From Apilactobacillus kunkeei (GTDB lineage: Bacteria > Bacillota > Bacilli > Lactobacillales > Lactobacillaceae): DNA of 64,000 nt. This document shows, in pieces, positions 21,714 through 41,586 of this stretch (positions are counted from its first letter, which is position 1; each line of letters opens with the position of its first letter). The stretch lies in the NCBI RefSeq assembly GCF_001308195.1, contig NZ_JXDF01000031.1, positions 1-64,000 on the forward strand, read 5' to 3'. The translations under genes were made by a program, and so were the position numbers. Under the pieces are notes generated by a model. The model was not told where the DNA came from, did no database searches, and saw only the letters and a list, made by a program, of their open reading frames with translations.

Positions 21714-21752
21714 AAAAATAACCCTGAACTTTTATGTTCAGGGTTATTTTTT
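21714..21752. terminator. Shared terminator, ABC exporter and addA
   Basis: The stem AAAATAACCCTGAAC/GTTCAGGGTTATTTT lies between convergent genes. Confidence 0.9.
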
Positions 21753-24700
21753 ACTTAATTTTGACTGGTTTATTAATTGATAGTAGATAAATAAATTTAT
21801 CAGTAACCGGTTTATGCAAGATGTTTTCCAACGCCTTAGCATATAGGTTAATTTGACCCTTGTACTTCTTAACGGCCTTATCAATACTTCTATCACTATC
21901 ATTTGGAACGTAGTCGGTCTTGTAATCAAACAAGATGACTTCATCGTCTAACTCGATATAACCATCAATAATCCCGTGAATTAGGATTTTTTCTGGTGAA
22001 TCGGCGTCAAAACCAGGGAATACAAGATTGGCATCCATTAGCATCGAGAATGGTGCTTCACGATGAATTCTTTCTGGATGAGCCAGCATTTGTAGTCCTA
22101 ATTCACTGTCAAACACATTAATAACTTCTTGGGTTTGAATTAAGTCAGCGATTTCTGGGGTAACGATTTTATCGGCAACTAAACGTTGTAGCATCCCTAC
22201 CACGTCTCCTACTTCTGGCTTGTGGTCCAATGGCACCTCTTGTAGCAACAAGTGGGTGGCAGTACCGACTTCAGCAGGACTTGGTTTGACAACCGATTGC
22301 ATGAACTTAGGAACCGTGAAGTTTGAACTGACGTACATGTTCTTTTGCTTATTGTTTTCTTGCCAATGTTCATCATAGTTACCCAATTGAATGCTATCCG
22401 GATCTTCAAATAGTCGTTTAATTTCGGAAACTGATTGATAAGCAGTGGTATGGGTCGCAACTTGATTTTGATAAGTGAAGTCCAAGACCTGGTCAACATC
22501 ATCAACATTGATATCCTTTGGCACCATCTTCTTGGCACTTTCAACAATGTGATTTAACCACTTGGCACTAACCGCACTGTCGCCTGATGGGCTGTGTTGA
22601 GCTAGGTCGTTTGCATTCACGAATTCAACATCAAAGTTAGTCTGATCATCATCTAAACCTTTATAGGTAACGTCGTCACCGAACTTGTTTCTAAAGTTAG
22701 GATGACGGACCAATGCAGGTCCAATCCAGTCTAGGTAACTCTTGGCACCACTTCTTAAAGCGGCATCGACTAGTAAGGTGTCACCACTGGCAGCCTTGTT
22801 CCAGGCATCGATGACCTTAGTTCTGTCGTTTTCATTCTTGCTGGCACCAACGATGAATAATTGTTGCTCAGCACGGGTTAACGCAACGTATAGTTTACGC
22901 ATTTCTTCGGCCAATAAGCCTTGGTTTTCGATTGCACCAACCACTTGGCGTTGCAATGAATCTTGTTTGATTCTAGTTTCAGGGTCGGTGTAGGTAATTC
23001 CTAGTCCTAGATGATCATTTAGGATGTAGGCCTTATTGCTGTCTTGTCTATTGAAACCATGTGAGGCATCCATTAGGAAGACGACAGGGAATTCTAGTCC
23101 CTTACTACCATGAATGGTCATTACTGATACTGCGTCTTGGTTGTCATCAGCATTGGCCTCATCCAAGTCTTCGTTTCTTTCTTGCATGCGACGCACAAAT
23201 CGAACGAATTGGAATAATCCCTTAAAACTAGTTTGTTCGTAGTCATATGCACGTTCGTATAGGGCATGTAAGTTAGCTTGGCGTTGTCTTCCAGCAGGCA
23301 TCCCTCCAACGTAATCCAGGAATCCGGTGGTTTCATAGATGTCCCAGATTAAATCAACAATCGCATGTTGTTGGGCAACATCTCTGAAGTGTTTTAATTG
23401 TTCGACAAATGTCTTCACGCGTGAGAATACTTGGTCACCAAATTCGGAGTGATCCATGTTTTCGTAATTGTCGTAGAAATTAATTACGGCATTGAAGTAA
23501 TCACCGGTCTTTTGGTTAATTCTCAAGTATGCCAATTGGTTTTCATTTAAACCAACCATTGGCGAACGCAATACCGCCACCAACGGAATGTCTTGGTATG
23601 GATTATCGATGATTGATAACATCGACATCATAATTTGAATTTCGGTGGTCTTGAAGTAACTTTGCGCCCCGTTGATTAGGACTGGAATGTTGTATGAACC
23701 AAAGATATCGGAAATGATGAGGTTGTTATTTCTCGTCGAAGAAATAATTGAGATATCAGAGTATTGAATTGGACGCATCACTTGTTTGTCACGGTCAAAC
23801 ACTGGTAGCTGCTTTTCAACCATTTCGTTAATCTTTTGGGCGACCATTTCGACTTGGCCATGCGCACTGTCTTGGACTTGGAATTGGTCGTCGATTGGTT
23901 CTTCTTCGTCGTCCTTACTTTCGTAAATCATCACATCAACATTGGATTGTAATTCGTCTGGATAGTATTTCGCACCGGCCTTTAGTTTGGCATCCCCGGT
24001 GTAGTCAATTTCACCAACTCGTTTGTCCATTGTTTGGGTGAAAACTAAGTTGATGAAGTCATCGATGTTTTCTGCGGAACGGAAGTTATCGGGTAAGACA
24101 ATGGTGTGGCCATCTTCGCTATCCATGCGTTCAATAAACATTGATGGATCGGCTAGACGGAAACGGTAGATGGATTGCTTAACGTCTCCCACCATGAACA
24201 TATTGCTGTGTTCTGGGTTCGCCAATGTTGATAAAATCGCGTCTTGTAGACGATTATTATCTTGGTATTCATCGACCATGATTTCATTATATTGATTTTG
24301 GAGGTTCACTCTGACAGCCTTAGATTCGCCGTCTGAGCCAGATAGGATATCGTAGGCATAATGTTCCACATCAATGAATTCTAGACAATGACGCTTCAAT
24401 TTAGCCTTTTGATAGCTATCTGTGAATGCTAGGACAACTTGTATCAATTTCTCGATTAATTGCTTGGAAGCCTTCATTACTGAAAGGTTTTCTTCTTCGT
24501 TTAATGCAAAGTATTTATCAGGTAGTTTTTGAACCGCCTTCTTGGCGTTGTCACGAATGTCTTTGATACGGTCATGAAGTCCCTTGGCGATGTCGTCATA
24601 GTCCTTGGTAACACGTGGGAAAGCCTTGAACTTGATATCTTCAAAGGCTTGCTTAATGTCGTTCCAATCGGAATCAGGCAACATGTCATATAGACCATTG

Positions 24701-25476
24701 ATATTATCGATATCGACTTGAACGGCATCCGCTTCCTTTTCCATCAAATTTTCGTCAGCAATGCGTTTAGCAGATTCAAAAGATAGACGTTGTTGTGTTA
24801 AATCATTTTGAATGAATGGTAGTAGATTGTTTTGGTAAAAGTCGGAATGAATCAAATCATCCCCATCGATATCGTAAATCTTAGTGGTATTTTTCAACCA
24901 TTCAATTGGGTCACGGTTTACGTTGGCATAGTCGTAAATTCTAAATACTAAGTCGGTTAGCCCATCATCGGAACGGTCATTGGAGAAGTTTTCGGTCAAT
25001 TGAGCAAATAGCCCATCACTATCGTTGGCGTATAGATCTTCACGAACTGAATCCCAGACCTGTTCTTTTAGCATTTGGCTTTCTGTTTGATCCGCCAACA
25101 GTCTAAAGTTAGGGTCCAAATCAATAATGTAGTAGTAACTTTGGACGATTTTTTGACAGAATGAGTCCATTGTTGAAATATCAGCGACTGGCAAACGACG
25201 TAACTGACGCACTAAAAATGCCTTAACGTCGGAGTCAGTGGCTTTTTTCAATTCTTGTTGAAGTGCCTTTTGAATACGGTCACGCATTTCCTTGGCAGCG
25301 GCCTTGGTAAAGGTAACGATTAGCATTTCATCAATGTTGACGCGGTCGTGTAACAACTTGTTGATAACACGATCAACTAAGACACGGGTCTTACCAGAAC
25401 CGGCTGAGGCTGAAACGAGGACGTTTTCATCAAAATGTCCGGTAACGGCTTCTTTTTGTGGCTTTGTGTATTCCAT
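21751..25476 (-). CDS. addA: ATP-dependent helicase/nuclease subunit A (RexA)
   Basis: The protein has 1241 residues, full length for AddA. It has a UvrD/SF1 helicase core: Walker A SASAGSGKT (near 22-30), DEYQDNNRLQ, GDVKQSIYRFR and VMTIHGSKGLEFPVV. A C-terminal PD-(D/E)XK nuclease follows, with HGIIDGYIELDDEVILFDYKTDY. AddA and AddB together resect double-strand breaks to load RecA, doing the job of RecBCD. Its ATG overlaps the addB stop in a TAATG junction, so the two are translationally coupled. Confidence 0.97.
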   Translation of the reverse strand: MEYTKPQKEAVTGHFDENVLVSASAGSGKTRVLVDRVINKLLHDRVNIDEMLIVTFTKAAAKEMRDRIQKALQQELKKATDSDVKAFLVRQLRRLPVADISTMDSFCQKIVQSYYYIIDLDPNFRLLADQTESQMLKEQVWDSVREDLYANDSDGLFAQLTENFSNDRSDDGLTDLVFRIYDYANVNRDPIEWLKNTTKIYDIDGDDLIHSDFYQNNLLPFIQNDLTQQRLSFESAKRIADENLMEKEADAVQVDIDNINGLYDMLPDSDWNDIKQAFEDIKFKAFPRVTKDYDDIAKGLHDRIKDIRDNAKKAVQKLPDKYFALNEEENLSVMKASKQLIEKLIQVVLAFTDSYQKAKLKRHCLEFIDVEHYAYDILSGSDGESKAVRVNLQNQYNEIMVDEYQDNNRLQDAILSTLANPEHSNMFMVGDVKQSIYRFRLADPSMFIERMDSEDGHTIVLPDNFRSAENIDDFINLVFTQTMDKRVGEIDYTGDAKLKAGAKYYPDELQSNVDVMIYESKDDEEEPIDDQFQVQDSAHGQVEMVAQKINEMVEKQLPVFDRDKQVMRPIQYSDISIISSTRNNNLIISDIFGSYNIPVLINGAQSYFKTTEIQIMMSMLSIIDNPYQDIPLVAVLRSPMVGLNENQLAYLRINQKTGDYFNAVINFYDNYENMDHSEFGDQVFSRVKTFVEQLKHFRDVAQQHAIVDLIWDIYETTGFLDYVGGMPAGRQRQANLHALYERAYDYEQTSFKGLFQFVRFVRRMQERNEDLDEANADDNQDAVSVMTIHGSKGLEFPVVFLMDASHGFNRQDSNKAYILNDHLGLGITYTDPETRIKQDSLQRQVVGAIENQGLLAEEMRKLYVALTRAEQQLFIVGASKNENDRTKVIDAWNKAASGDTLLVDAALRSGAKSYLDWIGPALVRHPNFRNKFGDDVTYKGLDDDQTNFDVEFVNANDLAQHSPSGDSAVSAKWLNHIVESAKKMVPKDINVDDVDQVLDFTYQNQVATHTTAYQSVSEIKRLFEDPDSIQLGNYDEHWQENNKQKNMYVSSNFTVPKFMQSVVKPSPAEVGTATHLLLQEVPLDHKPEVGDVVGMLQRLVADKIVTPEIADLIQTQEVINVFDSELGLQMLAHPERIHREAPFSMLMDANLVFPGFDADSPEKILIHGIIDGYIELDDEVILFDYKTDYVPNDSDRSIDKAVKKYKGQINLYAKALENILHKPVTDKFIYLLSINKPVKIK

Positions 25477-28400
25477 TATTGATTGTCCCCCCTTAGCATT
25501 TTCAAGACGTCTTCTAACGAGTAGTTAGGCACATCTCTGTAGTTATTTTCATTCAATAGCGGATCGAACTGCATGATTGAACGATAAGGTGTAAATTGCA
25601 TTGCGTCTTGGTTTTGACCAAAGCGCGCTGGTTTCAAATCGATGTTTCCAGTAAAGATTTCTAATCCGGCCTTCTTGATTAGGTCCTCGTTGTGAGATAG
25701 CAATAGGTCTAAGTCTTCGGGTTGCACGATTGGACTGGACTTGTAGAAACTACCATCTTTTTTCTTTCTCAGTGGATAAACGTTGGATGAACCGTACTTG
25801 TCATCTTCGATGGTCTTATCAATCTTATCCAATAGTTCACCGTCGTTTACTAGAATTCCTTGGTATTTTTGTTTGCTTAATACCGCTTCTTCAAATGACT
25901 TCTTCAAGTCATCCTTGGTGTACTTAGGATTGTAGATGTGCATGTAAACGGCACCGGCCAAGGCGGCCTTTTCTTCTTCATCAATGATGCCTAGGTTGTG
26001 CGCTAACACATCGATGTAGGTCATCATTTGCATGGAAGTTCCGTCGTATACACGGGAGAAGTCCAACTTACGTTCACTGGACTTGTAGTCGACAATTCCT
26101 AGGTAATTCTTGCCGTCGACGTTCATTGAATCGATTCTATCGATTCGACCACGGACGTTAACTAACTTCGCGGTCGTTAATTCGTTGCTCTTAGGCAATT
26201 CAAAACTAAGTGGTTTTAAGTCATCCTTGTGACCAACTTGACCGAATGATATTTCGGTCTTTTTCGCACGCATTGGTGTGTACTTGCTTTGTTTTTGAAT
26301 GGTTTCGATTGTGTGTTTAACGGTCTTAATCAATTGATTCTTGATGTAATTCATTCGACTAGAACTACTCAAAATGGTGTATTGGAAGTCATTTGGATCT
26401 TCTAACATCTTGGCCACAACGGTATCAACCAATTCGTTGATTGCTTGTTTATCCAAGTTTTCCAAGTCGATATGTTCTGAGTTCACAATGCGCATCAAGT
26501 GGTCCATTGATTCGTGGTAGAACTGACCGGTACTTGCTGGTGATAGGTCAAAGACATCACGTTCTTTTAGTTTCAAACCATAGCGCAAGAAGTATTCGTA
26601 TGGGTTGCTGTAGAATTGTTCCAACTTAGAGATGGAAGTATTGATTTTATCCCCGTATAAACCGGTAACGATTTCTGGCAACAATTGTGTTGGTGTGTTG
26701 TTGTAGTCTAAACCACCCAATAGTTTGTTGGTTAAGTCACGGTAGTTTAGGTTTTGATCTAGTTTGTTATATACATATTGCCATGCTGGGGCCAAATTAG
26801 AATTGTTTAGTTTGGCGTCTTGGCTGGCTTGAACCAGGTGACGAAGCGTTGAACGATAAGTTCCGACATATTCGTAGATATCCTTGGCATCAGCGGTTGG
26901 ATGACTGGGAATGTGTTGGATATCAATGCCGAAGTGTTCCGCAATTCTGGAAACGTATGGTGAGATGGCAACTGAAGATTCGTCACTATCGCCTAGACTG
27001 TAGGAAAAGATTAGCTTTTCACTACCTGATAGGAATGCTAGATAGTTTAGGAATGGATCGTTGGCCATTTGGTTTTCAGATGTTTCACGCAAGTATTGGT
27101 CATCGTCAAAGAAGTCACGCAAATCATCACGGTCCGCGTCACTAAATAGTGCTTCGTTGGTAATCTTATCGGGCATTACTTCGTCAGTGGCACCCATCAT
27201 GAAGACCACTTTACGGTTGTTCATTTGAACGATTCCACTTTCAGAAATGGCAACTTGGTCCAATGTGGAAGGAATTTGTGAGTAGTTGGCACCTGAGAAT
27301 CCACTTTGAAGAAGACTCAAAAAGTCGTCGGCAACAAATTCACGGTTCCCTAGAATTGAAACGTAGTCGTCCAATAAATTACAGAATGTTTGCCATACCT
27401 GTTCTGGTTGCGCCGCATCCAATAGATTGTCCTTTAAGATGGAGTCGTTACGCCATTGCTTTAGTCTTCTAACTACTCCCATGTCAACTAGGAATTGGAA
27501 TAATGTGGCAGCAGCTTCTTGACCCGTCTTGGCGTTTCGCATCTTCTTGAAGAATGGTGGGAAATTATCACCAATAAAGTGTCTAATCACGTTAATCTTC
27601 CCAGAAATATTGCGCATTCTGTCAGCTTGAACACCAAAATCACTGTCTGACAGCCATGCGTATTGCCAGTCTTCCTTTTGAGTCCAGCGAGAGCCTTCAT
27701 AACCATTCTTTAGTACCAAGTTTTCGGTTAAGGCAACGTATTGACGGTAATCGTCACCTTCAATAAAGTTACCGTTGCCATCACCTGGGACCATTAATTC
27801 GGTCTTTAATAAACGCATGACGTCTTGGTATTGGTACTTACGAGAGCCGTTTTCTAGACTGAAAAGAGCATCGATTAATTCGACCAATGGATGGTCTTCC
27901 ATTGATTTGGTAACGTCGTTAAACGCGGGAATGTCGAGTAGTTTAAATACTGGTTTGATTACGTTTTGGTACTTGTCCAAGTGACGAGTCAAGATTAAGA
28001 AATCGGAGTATTTGTAGCCACCATGAGCGACCATTTGGCGAATCTTCACCGCGATATTTTCCACTTCAGCAAACGGACTGTCGGCACGGTAGACCTGAAT
28101 GCTGTCAGGATTGCTTAGTGAACTCTTGTCGATATCGCCTAGTCCGGTGGATTGTGCCCAGTATGTATCTAGCTTGTGTAAATCATCAGACACGCGAAGA
28201 TTCTTGGCCATCTTATCGACTAATACGGGAACGTTATTGGCACGGGCAATATTGTAAAAACGGTTGTACCACTTGGCTGATTGGAAAAATAAGTTAGGAC
28301 CTTGTGGTAGTTCGTCGGGGTACTTGCGATCCAAGTTCAAACCAATGGTAACCCCAGCAGAACGCTTGATTAGTAGTTCGACTAGCTTGGCTTCTTGGGC

Positions 28401-29045
28401 GGTAAATTGGTTAAAGCCATTGAAGTAGAAATGACTGCGGGATAAGTCTAGTTCATCATTTTCGATAAAACGACAGAAAAGGTTTAAAACGTCTGATTTA
28501 TATAGGTAGATTCCTTGAGTTTGTTCCTCAAAAGCGCGGTAAATGATGATAAAATCATGCATTTTATCGCGTAATCCAGCGTTTAGTTTGTCATTGTTTT
28601 CAACGATTTTTTCAAGGTTGTCGGCAGAAATTTGGCCGGCTTGCATTTCACTGATTTGTTGAGCTAATTTTTGAATAAACCCAGGTTGGCCGGTTTCACC
28701 CCTAAAGACGGTCAATTCATCCTGGTGGTCGATTAAAATTTGGTAGATCAGCATGCTAATACCGGAGTCGCTTAGTCTTGTCTTTTGGTATTCTTGGTTA
28801 TTCTTCATGTAATACCAGACAAGTCGGGTAATGGAGAAAGTCTGGAACTTACTTTCGGCATAGATTGGTTCGTTGTTGGTGTTTAAGTCCTTTAAAGCTT
28901 GCACTTCGGATTCGAACTTAATGTGGTTAGGCACTAGATAGAAAAATTCATCATCAGGGTGATTGTTGATTGATTCTTTTAGTGAATCAACGATGACTTC
29001 TTCATGATCATAGCTGGCGGTTCCCAAAATAAATTGTAAAGACAT
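25476..29045 (-). CDS. addB: ATP-dependent nuclease subunit B (RexB)
   Basis: The protein has 1189 residues. At the N-terminus the Walker A loop of Bacillus AddB is replaced by FILGTASYDHEE, which has no GKT/S; this is the RexB form known from lactic acid bacteria. The C-terminal nuclease motif is GIVDYKSSERKLDF. The cysteines that hold the Fe-S cluster in Bacillus AddB are absent (for example, FYSNPYEYFLRYG where CPF is usual). It acts with AddA in break repair. AAGGGG precedes the ATG. Confidence 0.95.
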   Translation of the reverse strand: MSLQFILGTASYDHEEVIVDSLKESINNHPDDEFFYLVPNHIKFESEVQALKDLNTNNEPIYAESKFQTFSITRLVWYYMKNNQEYQKTRLSDSGISMLIYQILIDHQDELTVFRGETGQPGFIQKLAQQISEMQAGQISADNLEKIVENNDKLNAGLRDKMHDFIIIYRAFEEQTQGIYLYKSDVLNLFCRFIENDELDLSRSHFYFNGFNQFTAQEAKLVELLIKRSAGVTIGLNLDRKYPDELPQGPNLFFQSAKWYNRFYNIARANNVPVLVDKMAKNLRVSDDLHKLDTYWAQSTGLGDIDKSSLSNPDSIQVYRADSPFAEVENIAVKIRQMVAHGGYKYSDFLILTRHLDKYQNVIKPVFKLLDIPAFNDVTKSMEDHPLVELIDALFSLENGSRKYQYQDVMRLLKTELMVPGDGNGNFIEGDDYRQYVALTENLVLKNGYEGSRWTQKEDWQYAWLSDSDFGVQADRMRNISGKINVIRHFIGDNFPPFFKKMRNAKTGQEAAATLFQFLVDMGVVRRLKQWRNDSILKDNLLDAAQPEQVWQTFCNLLDDYVSILGNREFVADDFLSLLQSGFSGANYSQIPSTLDQVAISESGIVQMNNRKVVFMMGATDEVMPDKITNEALFSDADRDDLRDFFDDDQYLRETSENQMANDPFLNYLAFLSGSEKLIFSYSLGDSDESSVAISPYVSRIAEHFGIDIQHIPSHPTADAKDIYEYVGTYRSTLRHLVQASQDAKLNNSNLAPAWQYVYNKLDQNLNYRDLTNKLLGGLDYNNTPTQLLPEIVTGLYGDKINTSISKLEQFYSNPYEYFLRYGLKLKERDVFDLSPASTGQFYHESMDHLMRIVNSEHIDLENLDKQAINELVDTVVAKMLEDPNDFQYTILSSSSRMNYIKNQLIKTVKHTIETIQKQSKYTPMRAKKTEISFGQVGHKDDLKPLSFELPKSNELTTAKLVNVRGRIDRIDSMNVDGKNYLGIVDYKSSERKLDFSRVYDGTSMQMMTYIDVLAHNLGIIDEEEKAALAGAVYMHIYNPKYTKDDLKKSFEEAVLSKQKYQGILVNDGELLDKIDKTIEDDKYGSSNVYPLRKKKDGSFYKSSPIVQPEDLDLLLSHNEDLIKKAGLEIFTGNIDLKPARFGQNQDAMQFTPYRSIMQFDPLLNENNYRDVPNYSLEDVLKMLRGDNQ

Positions 29046-39499: not shown

Positions 39500-39509
39500 T
39501 AAGACAAAT

Positions 39510-39539
39510 AAAAAGAGACCTCTGCGGAGGTCTCTTTTT
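39510..39539. terminator. Shared terminator, purine permease and retron RT
   Basis: The stem AAAAAGAGACCTC/GAGGTCTCTTTTT has a TGCG loop. It ends the retron transcript on the minus strand and the permease transcript on the plus strand. Confidence 0.9.
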
Positions 39540-39541
39540 AG

Positions 39542-41374
39542 TTATTTACAAAATTCCTTTAATTGGTCTAATAGAGGAATAAATCCACTCAAACCAACAG
39601 TATTGTAGTGTTTATAAACATATTTGGACAATGTTTGCTTTCCAAATTCTTTATCCGAGTCTTTATTTGCGTTTCTATTAAAAGTTTTTTGATTAATTGT
39701 TATAGTTGACAAATCTATTAAATTCTCAATGTCTATTGATAAATCATTATTACCTTTAAAATTTTTATCATTGATATGATCATCAATATAGTTTTCTAAC
39801 TCTTTTTTATAGTTTTTATCTTTAATTAAAGTTATCAAATAAAGATTATCAGCTATCACTAATTTCCCTTCAGAAATAAGTTTTCTATATTGACTTGTTG
39901 CTTTATTACCATAAACATGATTTAAAAAGGAACGTAGTGGTTTATTTTTCTTATCGAGATATTCATTATCAAACAATAAAATGACTTTCTTACTTTTGTT
40001 ACCTAGTTTATTTACAAAATAATCATAATAATTTTTATTTTCCTTTGTCTTCTTATCTAATGCAATACCCCAATATTCAACTATTTTACTCATTACACTT
40101 GCGCCATCGTCAGACAGTCCCAAATAATAGTCTTTAATGCTATAGTCTATCTCATTACGTTTATAGTTTTCTTTTAATAAATCTTCGTTTCCTCTCTTAA
40201 AAAAATCAATATTAAACTCAAAAGTTCCATTATTATTTCTAATAAGCTCTGGATATCTATTATAATACATCATCATTGCAGCCTTTATATATCTAATGTC
40301 TGTCTTACCCTCAACAAAAATTAATGGTTTAGAACCGTGAATAAAATATTTATAAAATAGAAATTTTCGATATTGCTCATCAAATCCGCCCAAATAAGGT
40401 TCATATCTATACTTAGTCGTTGATTTTATGAAATTGCTGTATTCCTTACTTTTTCTTGCATATTTTCTTGATTCAATTAAAAAATTATAACGTTTCACTT
40501 GATTTACAAAAGCAAATCTACCTTCAAGTTTATTTAATTTATCAAACTTTTTACCGTCTATAAAATATTTCCCGTCACTGTACAGATTAAAGGCTTGAGC
40601 TCTGAGATCTCTGTAGTACTTTCTGGAAACATTAATTTTTTTGTTAACTACCAAACCGGTAACTTCTTGCTTAGAAGAAGAAAATTGAAGTCTTGTCTTC
40701 TTTTTGTTAATTTTAAATCCTTGTCGATAAAGTAAAAATTTTAATTCTTCTACAAAGTTAATATACCTATATTTGAAGTTGGAATCGTTGGTAGAGAATG
40801 TCATATCATCAGCATATCTCGTATAGTCTAGCTTGTATTTTTTTGAAAGTTTCAAAATCTTAAAATCAACTATTCTAAAAATAAAATTAGTTAATACAGG
40901 GGAAGAAGGGGATCCCTGAGGTAATTTATTTTTGTATGTAAATATTTTGCTCAAAATTACCGAAAGTTGCTTATTCATTTTAAAATCATTGCTTTTCTGA
41001 AGATACCCATACACTCTACCAAAATTAAATTCATCGAAAAAGTCCTCTATATCTAAGTTTAGGATAAACTTCTTATTTCTGTGTACTTTAGCATTAGACA
41101 TTATATTTCTTTTCTTGATAAATGCTTGAGATACATTAAATGAGCCATATTTATTATCATATTCCTCAGAAAGCTTTTTTTGTAATTTCTTTTGTAATTT
41201 CTTCAACGGACCCTTCGGGCATGATATAAACCTACTACCTCCACTTTTCTTAGGTAAAGAGAATTCCTCATAAAAAGAATCTACGCCCTTAAAATAAACC
41301 ACAAAATTTATTAGTTTAACACTAACACCTATATATCTAGATAAAGATTCTACGCTTTTTACATCTTTAAACAA
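39542..41374 (-). CDS. Retron reverse transcriptase fused to a TOPRIM-like domain
   Basis: The protein has 610 residues from a TTG at 41374 (GGGGGG 6 nt upstream). An in-frame ATG at 41416 would put the a2 repeat of the RNA inside the gene. RT motifs run in order: KKSGGSRFISCP, retron-specific NAKVH (NAxxH, residues 94-98), ILNLDIEDFFDEF, LPQGSPSSPVLTN, catalytic YADD (187-190) and retron VTG (238-240, in VTGLVVN). The C-terminal third (about 345-610) has TOPRIM-like acidic motifs: LIFVEGKTD (Glu 355) and ILLFDNE (469-471; DxE rather than the usual DxD). This matches RT-TOPRIM retrons such as Ec67/Eco2, which act in phage defence. AT-rich codons suggest transfer. Confidence 0.92.
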   Translation of the reverse strand: MFKDVKSVESLSRYIGVSVKLINFVVYFKGVDSFYEEFSLPKKSGGSRFISCPKGPLKKLQKKLQKKLSEEYDNKYGSFNVSQAFIKKRNIMSNAKVHRNKKFILNLDIEDFFDEFNFGRVYGYLQKSNDFKMNKQLSVILSKIFTYKNKLPQGSPSSPVLTNFIFRIVDFKILKLSKKYKLDYTRYADDMTFSTNDSNFKYRYINFVEELKFLLYRQGFKINKKKTRLQFSSSKQEVTGLVVNKKINVSRKYYRDLRAQAFNLYSDGKYFIDGKKFDKLNKLEGRFAFVNQVKRYNFLIESRKYARKSKEYSNFIKSTTKYRYEPYLGGFDEQYRKFLFYKYFIHGSKPLIFVEGKTDIRYIKAAMMMYYNRYPELIRNNNGTFEFNIDFFKRGNEDLLKENYKRNEIDYSIKDYYLGLSDDGASVMSKIVEYWGIALDKKTKENKNYYDYFVNKLGNKSKKVILLFDNEYLDKKNKPLRSFLNHVYGNKATSQYRKLISEGKLVIADNLYLITLIKDKNYKKELENYIDDHINDKNFKGNNDLSIDIENLIDLSTITINQKTFNRNANKDSDKEFGKQTLSKYVYKHYNTVGLSGFIPLLDQLKEFCK

Positions 41375-41400
41375 AAAAATCCCCCCAGAGTACAAAAAAA

Positions 41401-41549
41401 GTATAAGATCACTCATTTCGACAGCGCCCCTCAGTTTACAGGTACACCTGCTTACAAGTAAATTTGGAAGCTAAAGTTAGTAGAAGGGGACACCCCCCAC
41501 CAATTTGGTCAAAACTCGCGAATCACGAGCACATAATCTGATCTTATAC
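41401..41549 (-). ncRNA. Retron msr-msd RNA
   Basis: On the minus strand GTATAAGATCA (a1, 41539-41549) and TGATCTTATAC (a2, 41401-41411) form a perfect 11-bp inverted repeat bounding 149 nt directly upstream of the RT. Inside are msr hairpins CTCG/CGAG (41515-41529) and ACCA/TGGT (41499-41509). An msd-like nested stem follows: CCCCT/AGGGG (41427-41431 with 41485-41489) around TTTAC/GTAAA and CAGG-TACA-CCTG (coordinates and bases as on the plus strand). RT would copy the msd part into DNA primed from a guanosine just after a1; the exact branch G and msd ends cannot be fixed by eye. Confidence 0.85.
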
Positions 41550-41557
41550 CATCATTA

Positions 41558-41586
41558 ATTTTATTGTAGTCCGTGTAATCTTTCAA
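41558..41586 (-). promoter_or_regulatory. Retron promoter
   Basis: On the minus strand TTGAAA (41581-41586) and TAAAAT (41558-41563) have a 17-nt spacer. Transcription would start at about 41550, right at the first base of a1, which is where retron RNAs begin. Confidence 0.8.

Follow-up and report, generated by a model that had tools for sequence, protein, structure and literature searches.

A reverse transcriptase gene of Apilactobacillus kunkeei raised the question of whether it forms, together with the sequence upstream of it, a complete retron, and if so of which type and in what state. The window analysed here is the whole stretch of 64,000 nucleotides at positions 1 to 64,000 of contig NZ_JXDF01000031.1 (assembly GCF_001308195.1). 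The locus at 39,542-41,586 on the minus strand contains a promoter-like pair of hexamers, a 151-nt retron RNA and an intact RT-TOPRIM gene. An earlier note, made from the sequence alone, had described retron parts lying in the right order; the repeat, the motifs and their spacing were all re-found directly, and evidence from homology was decisive. Judged by its sequence, the locus is a complete single-gene RT-TOPRIM retron of type I-C (Ec67/Retron-Eco2-like) from the Bacillota branch, as profiles, catalytic residues and a conserved RNA agree with the Ec67/Eco2-type assignment made earlier. The gene, its intact catalytic residues and an RNA of retron architecture with covarying pairs are present at the locus itself, which is a good fresh example of an already known anti-phage retron class and apparently intact. 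Retrons of this class produce a small hybrid of DNA and RNA and bring with them a toxin that cuts RNA.

The RT-TOPRIM protein and its place in type I-C

The RT-TOPRIM open reading frame (39,542-41,416, minus strand) corresponds to 624 amino acids when read from the ATG at 41,416, and this numbering is used throughout. The reverse transcriptase domain (40,442-41,371, approximately residues 16-325) contains NAxxH, YADD (residues 201-204) and VTG, the three motifs reported for it before, and is fused to a TOPRIM domain (39,545-40,327, approximately residues 364-623); the limits of both domains are approximate. The TOPRIM residues are E369, D373, D483-N-E485, D562, E564 and K593; acidic Glu and DxE positions had also been described in the earlier note.

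The four best PADLOC matches of the protein were all RT-Toprim_I-C models, the top one covering residues 16-623 with 620.8 bits (E=5.8e-187), and the NCBIfam family retron_Ec67_fus was matched with 466.7 bits (cut-off 450). A search with retron RT and TOPRIM profiles, which had been proposed as a check, thus returned RT-Toprim_I-C and, above its cut-off, the Ec67 fusion family. The NCBIfam model group_II_RT_mat gave 54.7 bits, below its cut-off of 300, and DGR families were absent among the NCBIfam matches and the best 25 of 40 PADLOC matches listed. In Pfam the protein matched RVT_1 only, and Toprim was not matched by Pfam alone.

Sequence, tree and predicted fold all place the protein in type I-C. 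Its best sequence matches in the PDB were Ec67/Eco2 chains (E 3.1e-78), with 30-34% identity to the Retron-Eco2 protein of Escherichia coli; these were the only I-C chains among the PDB matches listed, and no structure from the Bacillota I-C branch was seen there. An AlphaFold model built with 32 sequences had a mean pLDDT of 88.4, and the first five Foldseek matches of this model were all Eco2 structures (TM 0.71-0.77), the predicted fold thus matching the Eco2 cryo-EM structures.

In a 32-row alignment, the window protein keeps (Eco2 numbering) F46, YADD, E374, D378, D460 and E515 and has the same catalytic set as Eco2, with an invariant lysine at window residue 593. It has DxE where Eco2 has DxD, D462 being replaced by E (E in 27 of the 32 rows, D in 5). 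At the position of Eco2 S513 it has D, and 27 of the 32 rows have either D or E there. The Eco2-type trimer contact loop with R332 was not found in the window protein in this alignment: D331/R332/Y333 are not conserved, and R332 aligns to S in a variable-length, poorly aligned stretch, with R in one row and a gap in 19. Some of the other Eco2 contacts are also altered, with F for H281, M for H387 and I for K418. The absence of R332 bears on assembly as in Eco2, not on membership of type I-C.

Relatives were found with alignment A1, a single-protein search of genome and viral contigs having returned none, and of the relatives met in the scan of named genomes, which numbered at least 499, the 80 best were kept. 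In a reverse transcriptase tree of 122 rows, the window was nested inside a set of 61 Bacillota I-C rows (support 98/96). The earlier note had named a placement within group II introns or DGRs as one that would speak against a retron. Within the set it pairs with two L. plantarum plasmid copies, with support (86/83) below the tool's mark, and the letter make-up of the window row was flagged as unusual. The Bacillota I-C retrons, which include copies in Lactiplantibacillus plantarum plasmids, Enterococcus, Listeria and Staphylococcus, belong to the same clade and the same RNA family as that of the window, and their proteins are 36-46% identical to it over the matched parts. They differ in msd sequence and length, and in many of them, by inspection and without a count, a2 is followed by a GGAG-like site and an ATG.

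The retron RNA and its expression signals

The retron RNA (msr-msd) was located on the minus strand at 41,400-41,550, the limits being those of a covariance model. Its a1 arm, GTATAAGATCA (41,539-41,549), pairs over 11 nt with the a2 arm, TGATCTTATAC (41,401-41,411), which directly follows a conserved AATGAG. The two arms form a perfect 11-bp inverted repeat of 149 nt end to end, as had been noted earlier. The G at 41,538, directly after a1, is the predicted branching nucleotide for 2',5' priming and is homologous in position to rG15 of Eco2. An msr hairpin, GCTCGTG-ATT-CGCGAGT, lies at 41,514-41,530; six of its seven pairs show changes on both sides among relatives and one is invariant.

When the local 240 nt were dinucleotide-shuffled 2000 times, arms of at least 11 bp at a spacing of 110-220 nt arose in three cases. 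In the whole window there were four such pairs vs a mean of 3.4 in 20 shuffles; because this count is at chance, the repeat is weak evidence by itself and was set aside as stand-alone evidence. The fold of the RNA was more stable than all of 200 shuffles (z -3.42). Rfam 15, at E up to 1, placed no family on the retron RNA, and its four weak matches all lay at the terminator.

Conservation was assessed in the sequences upstream of 123 of 212 loci, comprising 34 loci from L001-L052, the whole of L053-L132 and, from the 80 viral loci, L133-L141. A motif-anchored search, from which eight loci of other or unclear types (L006, L007, L008, L009, L010, L041, L042 and L043) had been excluded beforehand and which also dropped rows below 150 bits and identical RNAs and required at least 7 weighted pairs of 11, gave 99 distinct RNA examples including the window. 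Five loci failed (L045, L078, L100, L129 and L133); the record of L045 starts at the gene and that of L133 nine bases before the match. The relatives share a plan 5' of their RT-Toprim genes, consisting of a1, G, ATT, a short hairpin and TTGAC..AAA.TGG or a variant of it, followed by a variable stretch, (A)ATGAG or A.GAG, and a2. A lack of a1/a2 conservation in relatives, which would have spoken against the assignment, was not seen, the arms flanking a core that is common to them.

Pairing counts from this search are selected, because both the motif anchor and at least 7/11 pairing were demanded, and arm-swap, covariation and covariance-model tests are fairer. Pairing of a1 with a2 averaged 10.5/11 within a locus vs 6.2/11 when arms were swapped between loci. 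The window a1 formed at most 7/11 pairs with any of the 98 other a2 arms and 11/11 with its own. For the covariation and model tests, 30 rows (A2) and 27 rows (A4) were hand-picked from the 99 for taxon spread. In the 30-sequence alignment, 98.0% of the cells were paired and 17 of the 18 pairs had changes on both sides. None of five measures reached as high a value in any of 500 shuffles, and pairing was 25-50% in slid versions.

A covariance model from 27 relatives, with the window excluded, found 41,400-41,550 with 73.3 bits (E=1.7e-14), the next match in the window having an E of 2.5. Covariance folding with relatives, suggested as a check at the outset, thus yielded covariation in nearly every pair and a model that recovered the RNA without having seen it. 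On 36 further loci the model matched all 30 RT-Toprim loci, of which L130 is not independent because its sequence repeats one in the model, and none of the six controls, namely L008, L042 (another RT type) and four permease loci (L216-L219). The reverse transcriptase of L008, as read from the sequence, ends in a trypsin-like GNSGGP motif. The model also found the Ec67 RNA (L139, E 6.8e-10) and so ties the Bacillota I-C ncRNAs to that of Ec67, although the a1/a2 sequences of the window and of Eco2 are unlike. In 60 related genomes, under stricter filters, it matched three (G000, G033 and G410), all with RT-Toprim. The window's own genome has a second, weak match on contig C18 (E 0.24).

The msd template was predicted at 41,413-41,501 (minus strand) by a boundary rule which takes as its two ends the first G beyond the AAA.T motif and the A that precedes GT-a2. 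Applied to Ec67 (L139), this rule gives 67 nt, the length reported for Eco2 (PMC12405507), and for the window it predicts an msDNA of 89 nt with the 5' end TCATTTCG and the 3' end CCCCCACC. In 30 members including Ec67 the predicted lengths are 59-120 nt, with a 5' TCATT in 26 and a 3' ACC in 17. The fold of the predicted msDNA was not unusually stable (z -0.84; with another type of shuffle -0.48 in the window and -0.03 in Ec67). A long stable msDNA hairpin was accordingly dropped as a hallmark of the window retron, Ec67 being likewise unremarkable.

Upstream of the RNA, a -35-like TTGAAA (41,581-41,586) and a -10-like TAAAAT (41,558-41,563), the latter 8 nt before a1, lie on the minus strand. 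The pair TTGAAA-17-TAAAAT, called a promoter in the earlier note, is therefore present at 41,586-41,558, but that stretch contains about as many promoter-like sites overall as chance predicts (16 found vs 15.0 expected). In the 99 loci including the window, TATAAT-like boxes (5 of 6 or better, one locus possibly counting twice, summed by hand) gave 58 counts at 6-9 nt before a1, or 14.5 per position, vs 69 counts over the 39 positions at 20-58 nt, or 1.8 per position.

Translation probably starts at the TTG at 41,374, giving a coding sequence of 610 amino acids (39,542-41,374, minus strand). The start is placed there because the ATG at 41,416, the start implied earlier, sits in the AATGAGT of the relatives, and because GGGGGG-N6-TTG is found at 41,386-41,372, with the GGGGGG (41,381-41,386) as candidate ribosome-binding site 6 nt before the TTG. 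The ATG was rejected as a start, being part of the conserved RNA motif before a2, and a2 lies upstream of the likely TTG start. Alignment to the best family profiles starts at residue 16 in the 624-amino-acid frame, and in relatives with a convincing RNA the residue matching it falls approximately 20-65 nt after a2. Some relatives align further upstream because ATGAG followed by a2 also reads M-S in that frame. A terminator-like hairpin, on both strands, is found at 39,509-39,540 between the stop codons of the permease and RT genes.

Genomic site and distribution

The retron is the sole occupant of the gap between crcB and a permease gene, which are the window ORFs of at least 50 amino acids adjoining it, and no mobility gene was seen between the two among such ORFs. 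Permease and crcB are 44-59 bp apart in three of 15 sister genomes (L214 in G011, L215 in G007, L220 in G010), representing the empty site. In one, crcB is approximately 1.25 kb beyond the permease, and in 11 it was not found within 1.5 kb of the permease, with ORFs listed in seven of these 11.

In G006 (L229, G006:C3:231500-239000), the gap contains at 1084-2971 a SLATT_5 2TM match, which covers profile positions 65-186 of 192 and is perhaps incomplete, and a UG17-type reverse transcriptase, both filed by PADLOC under DRT defence. From a reading of the ORFs, an isochorismatase-like gene and two crcB genes follow. Two different RT-based systems, the retron and the DRT-like pair of G006, are thus seen at one site in one genus. 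A protein family of approximately 140-164 amino acids is found downstream of the permease in three sister species (L216, L218 and L219); the L216 protein was matched neither in Pfam above cut-off nor in PADLOC at E<=0.001. Elsewhere in the window, at 21,751-29,045, two adjacent large ORFs (1241 and 1189 amino acids) give UvrD-helicase-type matches, of which that of the first is strong and that of the second weak; presumably they encode an AddAB/RexAB exonuclease.

The window's genome has a single RT-TOPRIM copy, and no match was found in the other 15 genomes of the genus. Among 397 Lactobacillaceae genomes, 19 had any RT match at E<=1e-3, and those of I-C-like type were in the window's genome, G151, G098, G033, G245 and, broken, G347. 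At E<=1e-80, RT-Toprim_I-C was matched in 18 of 395 genomes of the order; in three of the 18 the match covered approximately half of the profile only. The RT-Toprim retron of G347 (L005/L130, recorded as Leuconostoc inhae) has internal stops, and G098 (L037) has a near-identical reverse transcriptase with an open reading frame. Plasmid records with I-C copies include those of Lactiplantibacillus, Enterococcus and Staphylococcus.

The novelty implied by the earlier note is not supported. Approximately 32.8% of 3395 retron or retron-like reverse transcriptases carry a fused effector, most often Toprim (37%; PMC12405507), and type I-C occurs in many Bacillota. The statement that no retron had been characterised from this group of bacteria is outdated: PMC12262390 describes retron Lna1, from the lactic acid bacterium Lactobacillus nantensis, as an editing tool used in L. 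reuteri at about 0.1% and, as cited there, also in E. coli. A search of the open-access literature listed no work in which a lactic acid bacterium's retron was challenged with phage, a weak negative. Being compact and intact-looking, the window's I-C retron is a candidate tool for lactobacilli, and it would allow the Eco2 model to be examined in a lactic acid bacterium, where the system is only distantly related.

Proposed mode of action in comparison with Retron-Eco2

By analogy with Retron-Eco2, which is likewise a single-gene RT-TOPRIM with the same RNA plan (a1, branching G, ATT, one msr hairpin, msd, GAG, a2), the window copy may be expected to make msDNA, to be inhibited, to have RNase activity, to respond to a trigger and to provide defence. 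The active defence system with a nuclease held by its own msDNA, as proposed in the earlier note, is an extrapolation from Eco2. The RNA would be transcribed from approximately 41,551 and a1 would pair with a2. Priming at the 2'-OH of the G that follows a1, the reverse transcriptase would copy the msd (41,413-41,501) into an msDNA of approximately 89 nt that stays attached to the msr RNA. As a complex, RT, RNA and msDNA would silence the fused TOPRIM nuclease, a restraint to which the RT domain probably contributes in its own right, and a phage activity attacking the msDNA would free TOPRIM, leading to RNA cutting and to infection being stopped.

In Eco2, a Toprim truncation has RNase activity, an autoinhibited trimer was observed by cryo-EM, Toprim mutants lose defence, R332 of the trimer loop is needed for defence and denB mutations were found in four escapers (PMC12405507). 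Full-length RT-Toprim is not toxic and Toprim truncations are, so that in Eco2 something besides the msDNA may hold the nuclease. DenB toxicity prevented direct assays, so that the trigger rests on escaper mutants (PMC12405507). Since the full-length fusion is not toxic and DenB was not directly assayed, brake and trigger are models in Eco2 too.

Taken as a whole, type I-C identity combined with Eco2-type msDNA synthesis, TOPRIM restraint and phage-triggered release is very likely the correct explanation. It is hardly credible that the gene is instead a group II intron or other reverse transcriptase beside a chance inverted repeat: RVT_1 is common to all these enzymes and 11-bp repeats at such spacing do arise by chance in the window, but the group II score is below its cut-off, the tree position is inside the I-C clade and the RNA is backed by covariation and by the covariance-model search. 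More weight, while still unlikely, is due to a copy that is correctly identified and yet inactive, being silent or without a trigger in its host and kept only recently after transfer. Such a copy could well be confined to one of 16 genomes of the genus, as this one is, and the G+C content of the gene (27% vs 37% for the window) is low and therefore points to acquisition; the Lactobacillaceae also include a copy, that of Leuconostoc inhae, which is interrupted by internal stops. At the window locus, however, the mapped RT and TOPRIM catalytic residues, the stem, the msr hairpin, the -10-like box and the terminator-like hairpin are all intact, and the stem pairs completely with its own sequence and far less well with the 98 other a2 arms, which argues for constraint at least until recently.

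Maintenance of the retron for a host role other than phage defence, such as stress or plasmid control, is quite improbable. The open-access literature yielded no phage data for the Bacillota I-C branch and several relatives are on plasmids, but effector and architecture are as in Eco2, whose defence needs TOPRIM residues (PMC12405507) that are conserved or conservatively replaced in the window, and the same genomic gap in a sister species carries another defence-type RT pair.

With phage defence as the preferred reading, a further suggestion may be offered, possible but on balance doubtful. The Bacillota I-C retrons might share an old RNA family with Ec67 and yet assemble and sense differently from Eco2, as the trimer arginine is gone, DxE and mostly D or E for S513 are found, and predicted msDNA length varies widely while the ends are nearly fixed. 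These fixed ends might then be recognised by the nuclease or by the phage trigger, and the permease-crcB gap might be a landing spot for RT-based defence in the genus.

An activated Eco2 structure is listed by title in the PDB (9s1f), and a gene of a T5-like phage is described as evading Eco2 and Eco7 (PMC11555353). The catalytic lysine of Eco2 has been named as K562 (PMC12405507). In the Ec67 row of the alignment (L139) position 562 is D, and the invariant lysine falls, by hand count, at Ec67 position 546.
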